Of a stretch of DNA of 38,358 bases, positions 8,929 through 15,376 are shown piece by piece. The notes beneath the pieces were generated by a model. It ran no database searches. It saw nothing but the letters and a program-made list of their open reading frames with translations, and was not told the DNA's origin. Origin of the DNA: Myxococcota bacterium. Lineage in GTDB: Bacteria > Myxococcota_A > UBA9160 > UBA4427. Location of the stretch: NCBI GenBank assembly GCA_029941885.1, contig JAPYTP010000037.1, positions 1-38,358 on the forward strand, in the 5' to 3' direction. The stretch's first letter is position 1. Every line of letters starts with the position of its first letter. The position numbers and the translations under genes were made by a program.

Positions 8929-8966
8929 GTGCAGTCTCGTCTCGACAGTGCAGTATTATGGCTGCA
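8929..8966 (+). promoter_or_regulatory. Candidate upstream activating sites (TGCAG half-sites)
   Basis: Two direct copies of GTGCAGT lie at 8929-8935 and 8948-8954. The second forms an inverted repeat with CTGCA at 8962-8966 (TGCAG, eight bases, CTGCA). They sit roughly 65-100 bases upstream of the -24 element at 9030, where enhancer-binding proteins of sigma-54 promoters usually bind. A further TTGCAG occurs near 8993. The rest of the gene-free stretch 8780-9144 shows no open reading frame of note. That the response regulator at 11682 binds here is an inference. Confidence 0.4.
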
Positions 8967-9028: not shown

Positions 9029-9044
9029 GGGCACGACGCTTGCT
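9029..9044 (+). promoter_or_regulatory. Sigma-54 (-24/-12) promoter
   Basis: The sequence GGGCACGACGCTTGCT matches the consensus TGGCACG-N4-TTGCW at every fixed position but the first T. The invariant GG (9030-9031) and GC (9042-9043) are exactly 10 bases apart. The predicted transcript starts near 9055, about 90 bases before the first kinase gene. The operon it would drive encodes an NtrC-type activator, which needs this kind of promoter, so the match and the context support each other. Confidence 0.72.
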
Positions 9045-9144
9045 CTAGCGAAGGGGCATGCACCGGCCCCAGCCACTCCTTGTGTCCCCGCGCGCGCTCC
9101 TTCCGCCCTGCGCGCTGTTCGACGCTCCCTCCGGAGGCCTCGCG

Positions 9145-10413
9145 ATGAGCGACGGCCGGAAGATTTTCGACGACCTGCGCGATGTGTTTCGCGACGGGCT
9201 CGATGATCTCAAGCGGGCCGGCCTGGAGCGACTCGATCGACTATCGGAATCGGGCGGCGCCAGGACCGCGAAGGCGGAACGGAAGGCCGAGCGGGCTTCG
9301 AAGCGTCTCTCGGATCGAACCGCGCACAAAGCCCGCCGTCGCGCGCGAAAATTCCGTCGACGGGGCCACCGCGGGAGTCACCACAAAGAGTCCGCGGCGC
9401 TCGACCCCAACGAGCGGGAGCACCTCCGCCGCATGCGGCTCGCCCGTCACCGCGCAAATCAGCGTCTTGGCTTCCTGAGCCATTTCGGAGCCTACGCCGC
9501 CACCCTCGGAATCGTTCTCCTCGCCACCCGCAGCTTTCGGATCACGACCCTCGTCGCACTCGGCTGGGGCATCGGTGTCTTCTGCCACTATCTCTTCGCG
9601 ATTGCTGCGCCGCGGCTGCGGGATCGATGGGTCGAGGAGGAGGTCGGGACCCGATCCGCGCGCGGCGTCAAGAGCGAGCGCCGCGAGGTGGAGACCCGCA
9701 GCCGACGCTCCCTCGAAGATCTTTCCGCCTCGATCGCCCACGAGATTCGCAACCCGATCACGGCGGCCAAGAGCCTCGTACAGCAGATGGGTGAAGATCC
9801 GGCATCGGGGGAGAACCTCGAATACGCGGGGCTCGCCCTCTCCGAACTCGACCGGGTCGAGCGGTCGATCTCCCATCTGCTGCGTTATGCGCGGGACGAA
9901 GAGCCTCGTTTCGAGCCCGTCGTGCTGGGTGAAATCGCGCGATCGGCCGTCGACGGCCTGCGGGAGAGGGCTGCTTCGCAGGGGATCGAGTTGAGTCTCG
10001 ACTGTGATCGCGCGGGGGAGATGCGGGGCGACCAGGAGAAGCTTCGACGCGTGATCGAAAATCTGATTTCGAACGCGATCGACGCCGTGCGAGAGGCCGG
10101 TACACCGCTCGGCCGAGTCGAGGTCCTGGGAGGCGAAAATCTCGCCGGAAGCGAGCTCTGGTTGAGGGTGGTGGACAATGGCTCGGGGATCCCCGAGGAG
10201 GATCGTGAGCGCATCTGGAGTCCCTTCTATACGACCAAGGATTCCGGGACGGGTCTGGGCCTCGCGCTCTCGCGCAAGACGATCGAGGCCCACGGCGGCC
10301 GAATCGAGCTGTTGACGGATGCCCGTCGGGGGAGCGAGTTCATCCTTTCGTTCCCTAAGGACCCGAGTGCGGGTCCCGGTGGTCACGGAGGAATCTTCGA
10401 TGATGGCCGGTAA
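9145..10413 (+). CDS. 2TM-domain sensor histidine kinase (first of two paralogues)
   Basis: A 422-residue kinase. Residues 1-90 are very basic and predicted cytoplasmic. Residues 95-165 match the 2TM domain, with two close membrane helices at about 108-127 and 133-155 and almost no periplasmic loop. A linker leads to the DHp domain with the phospho-acceptor His199 in SASIAHEIRNPITAAKSL. The ATPase domain has an N box (ENLISNAIDA), G1 (VVDNGSGIPEED) and G2 (GTGLGLALSRKTIEAHGG). With so little outside the membrane, it probably senses membrane state or a partner protein. The ATG at 9145 has GGAGG at -8. It is the first gene after the sigma-54 promoter, followed by a close paralogue, a response regulator and pspA. 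Confidence 0.9.
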   Translation: MSDGRKIFDDLRDVFRDGLDDLKRAGLERLDRLSESGGARTAKAERKAERASKRLSDRTAHKARRRARKFRRRGHRGSHHKESAALDPNEREHLRRMRLARHRANQRLGFLSHFGAYAATLGIVLLATRSFRITTLVALGWGIGVFCHYLFAIAAPRLRDRWVEEEVGTRSARGVKSERREVETRSRRSLEDLSASIAHEIRNPITAAKSLVQQMGEDPASGENLEYAGLALSELDRVERSISHLLRYARDEEPRFEPVVLGEIARSAVDGLRERAASQGIELSLDCDRAGEMRGDQEKLRRVIENLISNAIDAVREAGTPLGRVEVLGGENLAGSELWLRVVDNGSGIPEEDRERIWSPFYTTKDSGTGLGLALSRKTIEAHGGRIELLTDARRGSEFILSFPKDPSAGPGGHGGIFDDGR

Positions 10414-10540
10414 CCTGTTGGCGAGGCGAGACGAAGCGTTGCGGCTCGACTGCGACCCCGCGCGTGTCCTCGAGAGCCCATACAGGCACGAAGGGGAAGA
10501 CGAGATCGCAAGACCTGCGGGATCCCGTAAGGAGGGGCGA

Positions 10541-11689
10541 ATGAGCAAGGATGGGAAGAAGTCCCGGAAGCATCGCCAGCGCGCCGGGCGACACGAGGGC
10601 CGGCAACGGGGCTGGTGGGGCGACGAATTCTTCTTCGACGACGAGGAGTTTCGGGACGACGAGGCCGACGCGCTCGAAGAGATCGACGAGTCGCTGCTCT
10701 CGGAAGACGAACGCGCCTATCGCGCGGCCCGCCGATTGGCGGATCGGAAGGTGGCCCTCTCACGCAAGGCTCTTCGCGCAGCGGCGATTACGATTCCGAT
10801 GCTGATCTTCGTGCCCTTCTTTGGCGTGATTGCACTGATCTACTTTGCCGTTGGCCTCGGGCGGCGTGCCTTCAAGGTCTTCTACGAACCTCAGTTACAC
10901 GAACGCTTCGTAAAGGACGAAGTCCAGCGCCAGGTCCGGACGCGGGTCACGAGCGAGCGGCGAAATCTCGAAGGAGAGCATCATCGTTCACTCGAACAAC
11001 TCTCCGCCTCGATTGCCCACGAAATTCGCAACCCGATCACCGCTGCGAAGAGTCTCGTTCAGCAGTTGGGCGAGGACGCGGGGGGTGTCGACCAGGAAGA
11101 ATTCGCGCGCGTCGCGGTCGCCGAGTTGGAACGCGTCGAGCGCTCGATATCGCATCTGCTTCGCTACGCGCGCGAAGAGGAAATTCGCTTCGCGGAAGTC
11201 GTGATGGAAGACATTCTCGAGTCCGCCGTCGAGACTTTTCGCGATCGAGCGACCCGAGGCGGGATCGATATCGTCCGGCAATACGATGCGCAAGGGCGAC
11301 TCGAAGGGGATGCCGAACAGCTCCGCCGCATCGTGATCAACCTCGTCTCGAACGCAATCGACGCCCTCGAAGAGGGGAAAATCGAAGCACCCGAAATCCG
11401 TGTCACGATGGGGGAAAATCTGGCGGGGACCGAAGTCTGGGTGCGGATCGCGGACAACGGTCTCGGGATCGATGCGGATAAGCGCGATCGCATCTTCGAT
11501 CCCTTCTTTACCTCACGGGAGAATGGCACCGGCCTCGGCCTCGCACTCTGTCGCAAGATCGTAGACAACCACCGGGGCACGATCGACGTCGAGTCACCCC
11601 CGCCCGGTCGCGCCCTGGGGACGGAGTTCGTTCTGACCTTCCCGAGGCGTCGCGGGGCAATGCCCGATGGGGGGCGACGTCATGAGTAG
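10541..11689 (+). CDS. Membrane histidine kinase, paralogue of the preceding kinase
   Basis: A 382-residue kinase nearly identical to its neighbour in the DHp segment (SASIAHEIRNPITAAKSLVQ, His160) and in GTGLGLALCRKIVDNH. The N-terminus differs: residues 22-65 are strongly acidic, with runs of Asp and Glu, where the first kinase is basic. The membrane part is one hydrophobic stretch at about 80-106, either a hairpin or a single helix. TAAGGAGG precedes the ATG at 10541. A second good site (GGAGGA) precedes an in-frame ATG at 10400, overlapping the end of the first kinase; that start would add 47 residues. The stop overlaps the response regulator start by eight bases, indicating translational coupling. 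Tandem duplication followed by divergence of the sensory half is the likely origin. Confidence 0.88.
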   Translation: MSKDGKKSRKHRQRAGRHEGRQRGWWGDEFFFDDEEFRDDEADALEEIDESLLSEDERAYRAARRLADRKVALSRKALRAAAITIPMLIFVPFFGVIALIYFAVGLGRRAFKVFYEPQLHERFVKDEVQRQVRTRVTSERRNLEGEHHRSLEQLSASIAHEIRNPITAAKSLVQQLGEDAGGVDQEEFARVAVAELERVERSISHLLRYAREEEIRFAEVVMEDILESAVETFRDRATRGGIDIVRQYDAQGRLEGDAEQLRRIVINLVSNAIDALEEGKIEAPEIRVTMGENLAGTEVWVRIADNGLGIDADKRDRIFDPFFTSRENGTGLGLALCRKIVDNHRGTIDVESPPPGRALGTEFVLTFPRRRGAMPDGGRRHE

Positions 11690-13082
11690 CAAGATCCTCG
11701 TGGTCGAAGACGAACATGCGATTCGCTTGGCGCTCAAGGGACTGCTCACTCGGGAGGGGCACGAAGTCGAACTGGCGGAGAACGGTGAGATCGCGACCGA
11801 CCGACTCCGAAACGAAGTCTTCGATCTCGTGATTACGGACCTCGCCCTCGGGCGCGGCGCGACTGGTATGGACGTGCTGCGTGTCGCCAAAGAAGAACGA
11901 CCCGAGACGGCGGTTGTCATGATCACCGCACAGGGCAGCGAGAAGATTGCGGTCGAAGCCATGAAGAGCGGGGCGGATGACTATGTGCCGAAGCCCTTCG
12001 ACAACGACGAACTCAGGGTGGTCGTGGCTCGATCCCTCGAGCGCCATCGGCTCGAGCGCGAGAACAGACTGCTGCGTGAACAACTGCAGCGCGACTACGG
12101 CTTCGACCAGCTGATCGGCTCCGGTGCCGCAATGCGGCGCGTCTTCGAAACCATCCAGAAAGTGGCGGAGACGGATCTTTCGGTTCTGATTCGGGGCGAG
12201 AGCGGGACGGGCAAGGAACTCGTGGCGCAGGCGCTTCACTCGTCGAGTTCCAGGCGTTCCCGGCCTTTCGTTGCGGTCAACTGCGCCGCGATCAGCCGCG
12301 AACTCGTCGAGAGCGAGCTCTTCGGTCACGAAAAGGGTGCGTTCACCGGCGCGGATGCAAGGCGGATCGGTCGCTTCGAAGCGGCCCACGGCGGCACGAT
12401 TTTCCTGGACGAAATCGGTGATATGGCGCTCGAGACCCAGGCCAAGGTGCTGCGCGTACTCGAAGAGCGGAAGCTCGAGCGGGTCGGTTCGACCGTGACG
12501 ATCGATGTCGATGTCCGTGTGGTTTCAGCGACTCACCGCGATCTCGAAGCGGCTTCGAAAACGAACGATTTTCGGGAGGATCTCTACTATCGACTCAAGG
12601 TCATCGAGATCGAATTGCCGGCGCTACGCGAAAGGGTCGAAGACCTCGGGGCGCTCACGGATCGCTTTCTCAGCCAGGTCGCGGATCGACTCGGGCGGGA
12701 CAAGAAGGCTCTCGATCCGGCCGCGCTCACTCGGCTCTCTCGCCACGGTTGGCCCGGCAATGTGCGCGAGCTTCGCAACGTGCTCGAACGATCGGCGGTT
12801 CTTGCATCGGGGCCGGAGATCCGCGAAGCGGATCTACAGCTCGATTCCACGGCCGGCGATGTCCGGACCTTCGTGCCGGATCTCGACCTTCCCTTCGCCG
12901 ATGCCAAGCGGCAGGCGGTCGAGGGCTTCGAGCGCCAATTCCTCTCCGACGCGCTGCGGGAACACGAGGGGAACGTGAGTCGGACCGCGAATGCGATCGG
13001 CATGGTCCGACAGAGCCTGCAACAGAAGATTCGAGAACTCGGCCTGAAGGCCGATGAGTTTCGCCGTCGCGCCCGCGACTAG
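11682..13082 (+). CDS. NtrC-family sigma-54-dependent response regulator
   Basis: A 466-residue transcription activator with three domains. The receiver domain has acidic residues at 10-11, phospho-acceptor Asp53 (LVITDLALG) and Lys104 (YVPKPFDN). The AAA+ domain has Walker A GESGTGKE at 172-179, the sigma-54 contact loop GAFTGA at 219-224 and Walker [11 protein letters not shown]. The Fis-type helix-turn-helix is at about 420-460 ([20 protein letters not shown]). It should be phosphorylated by one or both upstream kinases and open sigma-54 promoters, including the one at 9029. The start is the ATG at 11682, inside the end of the second kinase, with a GGGGGG purine run upstream. PspA follows 26 bases later, so pspA is the obvious output gene. 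Confidence 0.92.
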
Positions 13083-13108
13083 CCGGTCCATCCGGCGAAG
13101 GAGAAGAT

Positions 13109-13861
13109 ATGTCCAACCAGAAACCCGGCATGTTCGCCCGAATGCGCAGCCTGTTCCGGGGCCTCTTCGGCTCCTGGGTTCGCGATCGCGAACAACAGGC
13201 CCCGGAGGTCGTTTACGAACAGGCGATCGCGGAGCGTGTGCGCCAATACCGCGAATTGAAGGATGCGGTCGCTGGAATTCTCTACATGCGGAACAAGCTC
13301 GAGAGTGAGATCGCGGATCGCCGCGCCGAGATCGCCCGGCTGCACGACGATGTGCGTCGTTCCATTCGCCGGGGCGAAGACGAAACCGCGTTCACGCTCA
13401 TTGCCCACAAGCAGGCGCTGTTCGAAGATCTCGAACGGGCCGAGCAGGAACTCGATCAGGTTCGTGGCCAGGCCGAGGAGGCGAAAACGAACCTCGTGCG
13501 CTTTCGGGAGGAGATCCGATCGTTGGTCCGAGAGAAGGGGCGGATGCTTGCGACCCTCGCGAACGCCCGGGCCCGCCGCCGGCTCCAGTCGGCCATCGAG
13601 GGGCTCTCGGTCGATGCGGAAATGGATGCCCTCGAGAATGTCCGCGAACACATCTCCCGGACGGCGCTGGCGGGTGAAGTCAACAAGGAGCTGGGAGACG
13701 ATGGAGATGCGTTCCGGGTGAAGCTACGGGGCTTCCGAGACGAGGCTCGGCGAGATTCCGCCCGGGCCGAACTCGAAAGTCTCAAGGACGAACTCACGAC
13801 TCCGTCGATTCCCGCTTCCGTCATCCCTTCCCAATCGGAGCCCGTGTCGGCGGCGAATTGA
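13109..13861 (+). CDS. pspA: PspA/IM30-family membrane-stress protein
   Basis: A 250-residue, almost wholly alpha-helical, highly charged protein typical of PspA/IM30 (usually 220-260). The N-terminal segment (MFARMRSLFRGLFGSWVRD) is an amphipathic helix that would insert into stressed membranes. The next 180 residues form long coiled coils (VVYEQAIAERVRQYRELKDA, then IADRRAEIARLHDDVRRSIR) capable of ESCRT-III-like assembly. The C-terminal 25 residues are Pro/Ser-rich. It closes the four-gene unit with the two kinases and the sigma-54 activator; GGAGAAG precedes the ATG. In enterobacteria pspA is controlled by PspF, also a sigma-54 activator but held by PspA itself. Here a phosphorelay seems to do the sensing. 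No PspB or PspC gene is present. Confidence 0.85.
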   Translation: MSNQKPGMFARMRSLFRGLFGSWVRDREQQAPEVVYEQAIAERVRQYRELKDAVAGILYMRNKLESEIADRRAEIARLHDDVRRSIRRGEDETAFTLIAHKQALFEDLERAEQELDQVRGQAEEAKTNLVRFREEIRSLVREKGRMLATLANARARRRLQSAIEGLSVDAEMDALENVREHISRTALAGEVNKELGDDGDAFRVKLRGFRDEARRDSARAELESLKDELTTPSIPASVIPSQSEPVSAAN

Positions 13862-14674: not shown

Positions 14675-15376
14675 ATGGATTTCGACCCCACGACTTCCGA
14701 ATTCCCCGAACCCTGGGACGAAGCCCAGCAGACGGAGGTCACCGCCCCAGATTCCGAGACTGCCCACCCCTACACGGGCGAGGTCGTGCGGGGGCCGGCT
14801 CGTGATTTGAGTGACGAGAGGCATTTGATCGAGTCGCTTCGGGCGGGGGACGCGGGAGCCTATGCGTACCTGATGGAGACGCGACGAGATCGGCTGATTG
14901 CCGTCGCCCGTCGCTATTTCTCCGAAGAAGAGGACGTACTAGATGCTGCCCAGGAAGCATTCATCAGCGTATTCCGGGCGATCGGTCGATTCGAGGGCAA
15001 CGCAGCCCTGTCCACCTGGCTGCACCGAATCGCCGTGAACGCGTGTCTGATGAAGCTCCGAAGTCGTCGCAGGAAACCCCAACAGGGACTCAGCCCGGCG
15101 ATCTCGGCGACGCTCGTCTCCACCTCGGCGGGGGGAGCGCAGACCGTCCTCGAGGAAGAGGAGCTCTCCCTACGGGTTCGAGATGCGATCGACGCACTGC
15201 CGGAACTCCACCGAAACGTGATCCGCCTGCGCGACCTCGAAGACAGGGATACGTGTGAGACGGCCCGGGAACTCGTGATTTCTCCGGCCGCCGTAAAGAC
15301 CCGACTTCATCGCGCGCGCATTCTGCTACGTGCTGAGCTGGCTTCCGACGTCGACGCATTTGCCCGATCGGCTTGA
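14675..15376 (+). CDS. ECF-type RNA polymerase sigma factor
   Basis: A 233-residue sigma-70 family member with regions 2 and 4 only. Region 2 is at about 65-135, with EEDVLDAAQEAFISVFRAIG and STWLHRIAVNACLMKLRSRR; region 4 is at about 172-225, with IDALPELHRNVIRLRDLE and SPAAVKTRLHRARILLR. It has an unusual 45-residue acidic, Pro-rich N-terminal extension. The ATG at 14675 is chosen because AGGCC/AAGG purines precede it and upstream in-frame codons resemble non-coding DNA; the 14351-14674 stretch holds only the stem-loop and the palindromes. No anti-sigma gene is adjacent: the next gene is convergent, 21 bases away. Its control must be transcriptional or through a distant partner. Confidence 0.87.
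   Translation: MDFDPTTSEFPEPWDEAQQTEVTAPDSETAHPYTGEVVRGPARDLSDERHLIESLRAGDAGAYAYLMETRRDRLIAVARRYFSEEEDVLDAAQEAFISVFRAIGRFEGNAALSTWLHRIAVNACLMKLRSRRRKPQQGLSPAISATLVSTSAGGAQTVLEEEELSLRVRDAIDALPELHRNVIRLRDLEDRDTCETARELVISPAAVKTRLHRARILLRAELASDVDAFARSA

Follow-up and report, generated by a model that had tools for sequence, protein, structure and literature searches.

We analysed a stretch of 38,358 nucleotides from a Myxococcota bacterium (contig JAPYTP010000037.1 of assembly GCA_029941885.1; the whole stretch is called the window in the following) with regard to the gene cluster that contains pspA. Two histidine kinases (HK1 and HK2), a response regulator of the NtrC type and PspA are encoded on the plus strand, nearly without gaps, at positions 9145-13861 downstream of a −24/−12 site at 9029-9044 (Table 1). 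These four genes probably constitute a single sigma-54-dependent, self-activating operon, which runs a Psp membrane-stress response through a two-component system. The reading builds on the gene order and the protein domains, on the conservation of this order throughout the class and of the promoter together with an upstream palindrome, on the presence of the same promoter type in front of unlinked genes of relatives, and on the lack of PspB in the class and of PspC in the genus.

Domain searches with Pfam agreed with an earlier note on this DNA, made from the letters alone, which had described a same-strand unit of two paralogous membrane histidine kinases, an NtrC-type activator and PspA. 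The two kinases share 48% identity across 307 aa. PspA is a member of the PspA/IM30 family (PF04012, 73.5 bits at a gathering score of 33.9, covering residues 8-228 of 250) and represents the single PspA match in its own genome, which is 92% complete with 6% contamination. HK2 and the regulator gene share 8 nt, and a gap of 26 nt separates the latter from pspA. In the relatives L045-L048 the HK2 start chosen by rule overlaps the HK1 end by 4-14 nt, and the same overlap is available in the window from 10400, so translation probably proceeds along the four genes as a single chain. For the domain, paralogue and locus comparisons the HK2 query started three codons upstream of the ATG (at 10532 instead of 10541), which left the domains unaffected. 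No additional gene was found between 9145 and 13861 among the open reading frames (ORFs) of the window and by Pfam, the next gene being that of ribosomal protein L28, and a simple scan revealed no terminator 3′ of pspA.

Table 1 Genes and predicted regulatory elements of the pspA cluster (positions refer to the window)
Feature	Position	Strand	Description
HK1	9145-10413	+	422 aa; Pfam 2TM (PF13239), HisKA, HATPase_c; GGAGG ahead of the start
HK2, paralogue of HK1	10541-11689	+	382 aa from 10541; Pfam HisKA, HATPase_c; alternative start at 10400 overlaps the HK1 end
Response regulator	11682-13082	+	466 aa; Response_reg, Sigma54_activat with GAFTGA, AAA lid, Fis-type helix-turn-helix (HTH)
PspA	13109-13861	+	250 aa; PF04012
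Predicted sigma-54 (−24/−12) promoter GGGCACGACGCTTGCT	9029-9044	+	one mismatch to TGGCAC-N5-TTGCW; ends 100 nt before HK1
Upstream palindrome TGCAGTATTATGGCTGCA, candidate regulator site (upstream activating sequence, UAS)	8949-8966	+	exact TGCAG-N8-CTGCA; starts 80 nt before the −24 element
Distal degenerate palindrome copy TGCAGTCTCGTCTCGACA	8930-8947	+	2 mismatches to TGCAG-N8-CTGCA

In the family (30 genomes) a full PspA is present in 17 genomes, and kinases (E ≤1e-40) were found in exactly these 17. Among the 90 genomes of the class PspA was detected in 60, two of which carry remnants, leaving 58 loci, some of them cut by contig ends. All 58 were inspected, 17 within the family (the window and 16 others) and 41 outside of it; three (L149, L150, L155) end at the contig border before any upstream gene, and one (L135) ends inside the regulator. 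The regulator directly precedes pspA in 54 of the 55 informative class loci, the exception being L136 of genome G048, and a kinase of this type is in place in all informative class loci (54/54); shared ancestry was not corrected for in these class and locus counts. With this order retained in all but one of 55 loci, a neighbourhood by chance is rejected. A sample of 282 genomes of the phylum yielded PspA (E ≤1e-30) in 101, and 66 of these belong to other classes. Twenty of these 66 were examined, one of the 20 loci lying on a contig of 3.3 kb, and none had a related kinase or regulator near pspA (tblastn E ≤1e-4; 3-11 kb around each). A phylum-wide distribution of the module is therefore not supported; in the phylum sample used it is a trait of the class. 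Conserved synteny in relatives, on which the earlier note had staked its idea, thus exists within the class and was not seen in the 20 loci examined beyond it.

The −24/−12 site had been noted before as a near-perfect sigma-54 promoter. It is indeed well conserved and turned out to belong to a larger promoter that also includes a palindrome further upstream. In the window alone seven sigma-54 matches with at most two mismatches compare to 8.0 expected, and the site at 9029-9044 is the only one with a single mismatch. A chance match, with which the window alone would be compatible, is ruled out by the conservation across the family: a site with at most two mismatches is found upstream of the operon in all 14 of the 17 family loci with enough upstream DNA (L052, L053 and L055 lack it), and in 11 of these 14 it has no more than one mismatch. 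With GG and GC fixed and at most one mismatch allowed, 12 sites were detected in 534 kb of strand sequence from the 17 homologous loci, and 11 of the 12 are promoters of this operon.

The palindrome TGCAG-N8-CTGCA is likewise present upstream in 14 of 14 family loci, as an exact copy in ten and with one mismatch in four. At a distance of 19-20 or 33-34 nt most of these loci carry another copy, usually a weaker one, an arrangement as would be expected for two regulator dimers. Up to 250 nt away from the 13 promoters detected initially there were twelve exact palindromes, and the one encountered elsewhere in 267 kb was the promoter palindrome of the fourteenth locus (L048). Judged from these sequences, the palindrome is likely the site of the response regulator, and it makes the autoregulation suggested in the earlier note likely as well. 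A sigma-54 promoter with an upstream activator site in front of the pspA operon, as in the PspF-PspABC system, is thus present by sequence and conservation, the activator site being a predicted one.

A composite promoter, in which the sigma-54 site follows the palindrome at 50-80 nt, was detected in 38 of the 90 class genomes and in none of the 90 in a reversed control; with a relaxed pattern 49 of 90 genomes were positive compared to one of 90 in the control. The relaxed composite promoter follows the distribution of PspA, being present in 46 of 58 genomes with PspA and in three of 32 without (Fisher p=6e-11, kinship not corrected). These three are G023, where it precedes a small membrane protein, and G026, both of which have lost the operon by deletion (see below), and G066, in which a kinase lies behind the promoter and no PspA match was found. 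Of 44 kinase promoters, 21 share an extra element, YAA[GC]YNN[CT][TC]G, at a nearly fixed position roughly 31 nt ahead of the −24 GG, as do three of 28 other composite promoters; it was not seen in the window.

According to the earlier note, both kinases should be two-transmembrane (2TM) proteins nearly without extracytoplasmic part. The latter is borne out for both proteins by the hairpins in the sequences and by AlphaFold 2 (AF2) models of moderate confidence. The former holds for HK1, which is matched by the Pfam 2TM domain, and not for HK2, the hairpin of which is shorter and diverged and gives no such match. In HK1-type kinases only a few residues separate the two hydrophobic helices, with kinase starts that were set by a simple rule and are uncertain, and in the AF2 model of HK1 the hydrophobic hairpin is broken only at residues 129-130 (pLDDT 78, pTM 0.48). 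Neither kinase has a ligand-binding, periplasmic, PAS or HAMP domain in Pfam. By sequence and AF2 model HK1 combines two transmembrane helices, a very short loop and the lack of a sensor domain, the features of intramembrane-sensing kinases, which are known from LiaS. Judged by eye, the hydrophobic arms of HK2 comprise about 13 and about 15 residues; the model is broken at residue 91 (pLDDT 72, pTM 0.46), and the arms appear short for crossing the membrane twice. Because an extracytoplasmic domain is essentially missing, we infer that HK1 and HK2 sense the membrane itself.

AtoS and ZraS were the best-scoring NCBIfam models for both kinases, all under their curated cut-offs. In a tree of 69 kinases, which omits 12 loci due to an unmatched kinase pattern or a cut contig, HK1 falls into one clade (42 rows, 100/99) together with an orphan kinase of G031 and 20 of the 26 single kinases. 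A separate clade (18 rows, 100/99) is made up of the HK2 proteins from the window's family and from family f9, and the second kinases of family f10 branch apart. HK2 shares 82% identity with a kinase encoded on PBFW01000036.1 (Deltaproteobacteria bacterium isolate SP3084).

HK2 may not be a second sensor at all; it could be a diverged partner, either a heterodimer subunit or a phosphatase, which tunes HK1. The shorter hydrophobic hairpin and the loss of the WGIG..H motif of HK1 would fit such a role, and so would the informative loci of families f5, f8, f11 and f12, where a single HK1-type kinase adjoins the regulator. We regard this explanation as doubtful. HK2 retains the HEIRNP box and the ATP-binding motifs, and in three genomes of the window's family (G006, G020, G021) the sole kinase next to regulator and pspA is of the HK2 type. 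Therefore either kinase type can probably suffice, and HK2 can probably work alone.

With HEIRNP boxes in both kinases and a receiver domain in the regulator, His-to-Asp transfer between them is predicted. The earlier note had spoken of a phosphorelay. HisKA and receiver domains are present, but Pfam detected no HPt domain in the operon, and an ordinary two-component system is hence the plain reading. All in all, what that note had observed is confirmed, and its interpretation is partly supported.

The best NCBIfam models for the regulator were NtrC and AtoC, again under curated cut-offs. Its residues 5-114 form a Response_reg domain, unlike the receiver-less PspF, and the PspF models TIGR02974 and PRK11608 reached 270.8 bits (cut-off 443.55) and 224.3 bits (cut-off 529), respectively. 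As had been claimed earlier, the regulator is thus not a PspF, and PspB and PspC are missing too: PspB was found in none of the 90 class genomes and PspC in none of the nine genus genomes, the window's own included. PspC is present in 12 of 30 family genomes, namely in five of 17 with full PspA and in seven of 13 without, so an association with PspA was not observed in the family and PspC was rejected as a constant partner. The family members without full PspA include G012-G019, and PspC, which seven of the 13 have, might mark another envelope response there.

That pspA and its own activator share one operon is also what a closed feedback loop would predict, in which PspA acts mainly as a negative regulator by docking on the AAA+ domain of the regulator or on the kinases. 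A precedent exists in Escherichia coli, where according to the accessible text of PMC3791423 PspA docks on a Tyr-Leu-Trp (YLW) patch in the W56 loop of PspF (residues 50-62). These docking residues occur in none of 47 activator loops, that of the window included; the loops were picked by motif from all fetched loci, and their membership in a module regulator was not confirmed singly. We therefore consider it unlikely that PspA serves mainly as a negative regulator here.

Two genomes of the same genus, G023 and G026, have kept the flanking neighbours on both sides of the locus and have lost what lies in between, namely both kinase genes, the regulator gene and the front part of pspA. A pspA stump corresponding to about residues 155 to 240 remains in both (L061 8808-9028 in G023; L062 from 8143 in G026). 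In G026 an intact promoter leads straight into the stump, and two mismatches are present in the sigma-54 site of G023. No kinase (E ≤1e-40) is left anywhere in either genome, and the loss of the regulator was seen at the locus only; the small membrane protein mentioned above was kept in both. Since the whole unit was lost in one piece, a single functional module fits these data. No match to PspA was obtained in the genus genomes G022, G025 and G029.

Downstream of pspA in the window the genes for ribosomal protein L28 (13916-14350) and for an ECF-type sigma factor (14696-15376) follow on the same strand. L28 is located within about 0.5 kb downstream of pspA in seven of 16 family relatives, and the sigma factor gene gave no tblastn match in 18 family-search loci.

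Thirty composite promoters were taken as loci. A kinase of this type follows in 23 of them, including the orphan kinase of G031 (L071, L104), and the remaining ones, together with some relaxed matches, precede unlinked genes. One of these encodes a small membrane protein with the motif PGLG.vY.G, which has matches in 34 of 90 class genomes, 31 of them at E<1e-10; in two relatives scanned it had no Pfam match above cut-off. The best 30 of 35 matches were examined as loci, and the PGLG motif was present in 29. For 27 of these 29 a sigma-54-like site and a palindrome (at most two mismatches each) were found in the 270-nt upstream stretch, in 13 cases with at most one mismatch each. About 0.04 such pairs would be expected by chance, because a reversed control (L121-L156 and L191-L210 read backwards) yielded five pairs in 1.01 Mb. 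The homologue in the window's own genome (84 aa; contig C35 23176-23403, L164) has a sigma-54 site with one mismatch and sits between ORFs which, from their sequences, we take to be SDR-like and aroG-like. In G000, G005, G009 and G027 the ORF after the small membrane protein is presumably an aroG-like DAHP synthase as well, named from sequence. A wide regulon in the own genome was rejected, as relaxed half-sites still give only one composite promoter there.

Genes for Toastrack (DUF4097) proteins lie behind composite promoters in G074 (two in tandem) and G045 and behind a relaxed one in G031, all identified by Pfam; a protein of G076 is similar by sequence. A cytochrome P450 gene directly follows palindrome and sigma-54 promoter at L101 (G008:C48, by Pfam) and at L111 (G076:C136, by sequence, relaxed pattern), in two different families, and a PLD-family protein is encoded behind a composite promoter in G040:C239. 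Lipoprotein-like and unclear ORFs were also found in this position in relatives. The isolated P450 and PLD-family targets may be chance or minor targets.

Such promoters in front of P450, PLD-family, lipoprotein-like and unclear genes are what one would expect if kinases and regulator formed a general envelope or metabolic two-component system, with PspA as one target sharing the operon and a stimulus other than membrane stress. Yet the non-Psp targets are single or double cases, whereas the combination of kinase, regulator and pspA is nearly fixed in the class, and the kinases carry no ligand-binding domain in Pfam. Moreover, the extra targets that recur are the small membrane protein and Toastrack, the latter being a known partner domain of Psp systems as far as the accessible text of PMC11237479 goes. 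A general two-component system of this kind is very unlikely in our view.

For the self-activating Psp operon, the wiring of genes and sites suggests a course whose steps between stimulus and DNA are put conditionally here. A disturbance of the inner membrane would alter the hairpin of HK1 and also the short hairpin of HK2, and both kinases would phosphorylate the NtrC-type regulator. This would bind the TGCAG-N8-CTGCA palindrome about 55-110 nt upstream of the −24/−12 promoter and drive RpoN polymerase. Kinases, regulator and PspA would rise together, probably along with the unlinked small membrane protein that has the same promoter type. PspA, for which a protective function is assumed by analogy to its family, would oligomerise on the membrane and stabilise or repair it, so that the stimulus fades. 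The kinases would then dephosphorylate the regulator; dephosphorylation of regulators is a general property of HisKA kinases. The feedback would accordingly work through removal of the stimulus rather than through docking of PspA on its activator.

Several observations weigh against this interpretation. The conserved neighbourhood does not identify the stimulus, and composite promoters also precede genes without a clear link to Psp. The exact palindrome occurs four times in the own genome (6.6 Mb) and ten times in the reversed control, so there is no genome-wide enrichment; of the four, the copy of the window alone lies at promoter spacing from a sigma-54 site. Even the relaxed composite promoter is missing in 12 of 58 PspA genomes. 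Four of these (L121, L131, L137, L150) are cut close upstream of kinase or regulator, and the rest have diverged or unmatched sites. The small membrane protein (E<1e-10) is found in only 27 of 58 PspA genomes and in four of 32 without PspA; it is a frequent, not a constant, partner. In the own genome, where it is the second regulon candidate, it was assigned by the homologue search and by a palindrome that has two mismatches. The drafts of G023 and G026 are 76% and 89% complete, respectively, so misassembly might conceivably account for the deletions. Finally, G048 (L136) possesses kinase and pspA without an adjoining regulator. Upstream of L136 lies a sigma-54 site with two mismatches, and a palindrome with one mismatch can be seen by eye; the regulator of this genome may be encoded elsewhere.

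With the PspF/PspABC system of E. coli the operon shares the PspA effector, the sigma-54 promoter and an AAA+ activator with Fis-type HTH. In contrast to that system, the activator has a receiver domain and is encoded in one operon with two kinases and pspA rather than divergently from pspA, and neither PspB (class), PspC (genus) nor the YLW docking patch is present. Like the Lia system of Firmicutes (liaIHGFSR), the operon places a PspA homologue under a co-encoded two-component system whose membrane kinase has a short loop. According to the accessible text of PMC11237479, the Lia response also involves a small membrane protein and Toastrack proteins; here both kinds of gene are unlinked and joined to the operon only by the similar promoter. 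In contrast to Lia, the regulator is a receiver (REC)-AAA+-Fis sigma-54 regulator and not a REC-HTH protein like LiaR, and the kinases lack HAMP in Pfam. No LiaF-like gene is present in the operon, to which this search was confined.

Two-component systems adjoining pspA or pspC are known from Actinobacterial Psp variants, i.e. ClgR-PspA-PspM, PspC-fused kinases, and PspA-PspAA with a two-component system (accessible texts of PMC9239133 and PMC11237479). In these texts no NtrC-type sigma-54 regulator such as the present one is described for them, and a PspC-fused sensor is lacking here. AtoSC, ZraSR and NtrBC share the pair of HisKA kinase and NtrC-type regulator, as indicated by the best model scores. 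They differ in that these scores stay under the curated cut-offs, that periplasmic or PAS sensor domains are absent here (Pfam) and that PspA is part of the operon. No description of a kinase/REC-AAA+-Fis/PspA operon was found in the literature searched, which was accessible in part and did not cover survey supplements and web tables. The locus is best read as Lia-like in logic and NtrC-type in hardware, an autoregulated sigma-54 two-component Psp response.

We tentatively consider a more far-reaching version possible, in which the class has separately evolved its own Psp response. In this sigma-54 two-component circuit both kinases would read the membrane through bare hairpins, that of HK2 being too short to span the bilayer and reading the packing of the inner leaflet. 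The unlinked PGLG protein, connected solely by the common enhancer and promoter, would replace PspB/PspC or LiaI, with Toastrack taking this place in some other families.

Psp control as described so far uses either a receiver-less sigma-54 activator held by PspA (E. coli) or other regulators in a two-component or repressor-type scheme (Lia, ClgR). In the present locus two-component input is joined to sigma-54 output, and within one class almost every genome with PspA has this arrangement. The cluster thus points to a separate way of running a bacterial membrane-stress response. Its enhancer-promoter signature makes candidate regulon genes readable from sequence and puts forward a possible membrane partner of PspA. 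With kinases that consist of little more than a hairpin on the sensory side, what a membrane-stress sensor measures becomes directly testable in a small isolated system.

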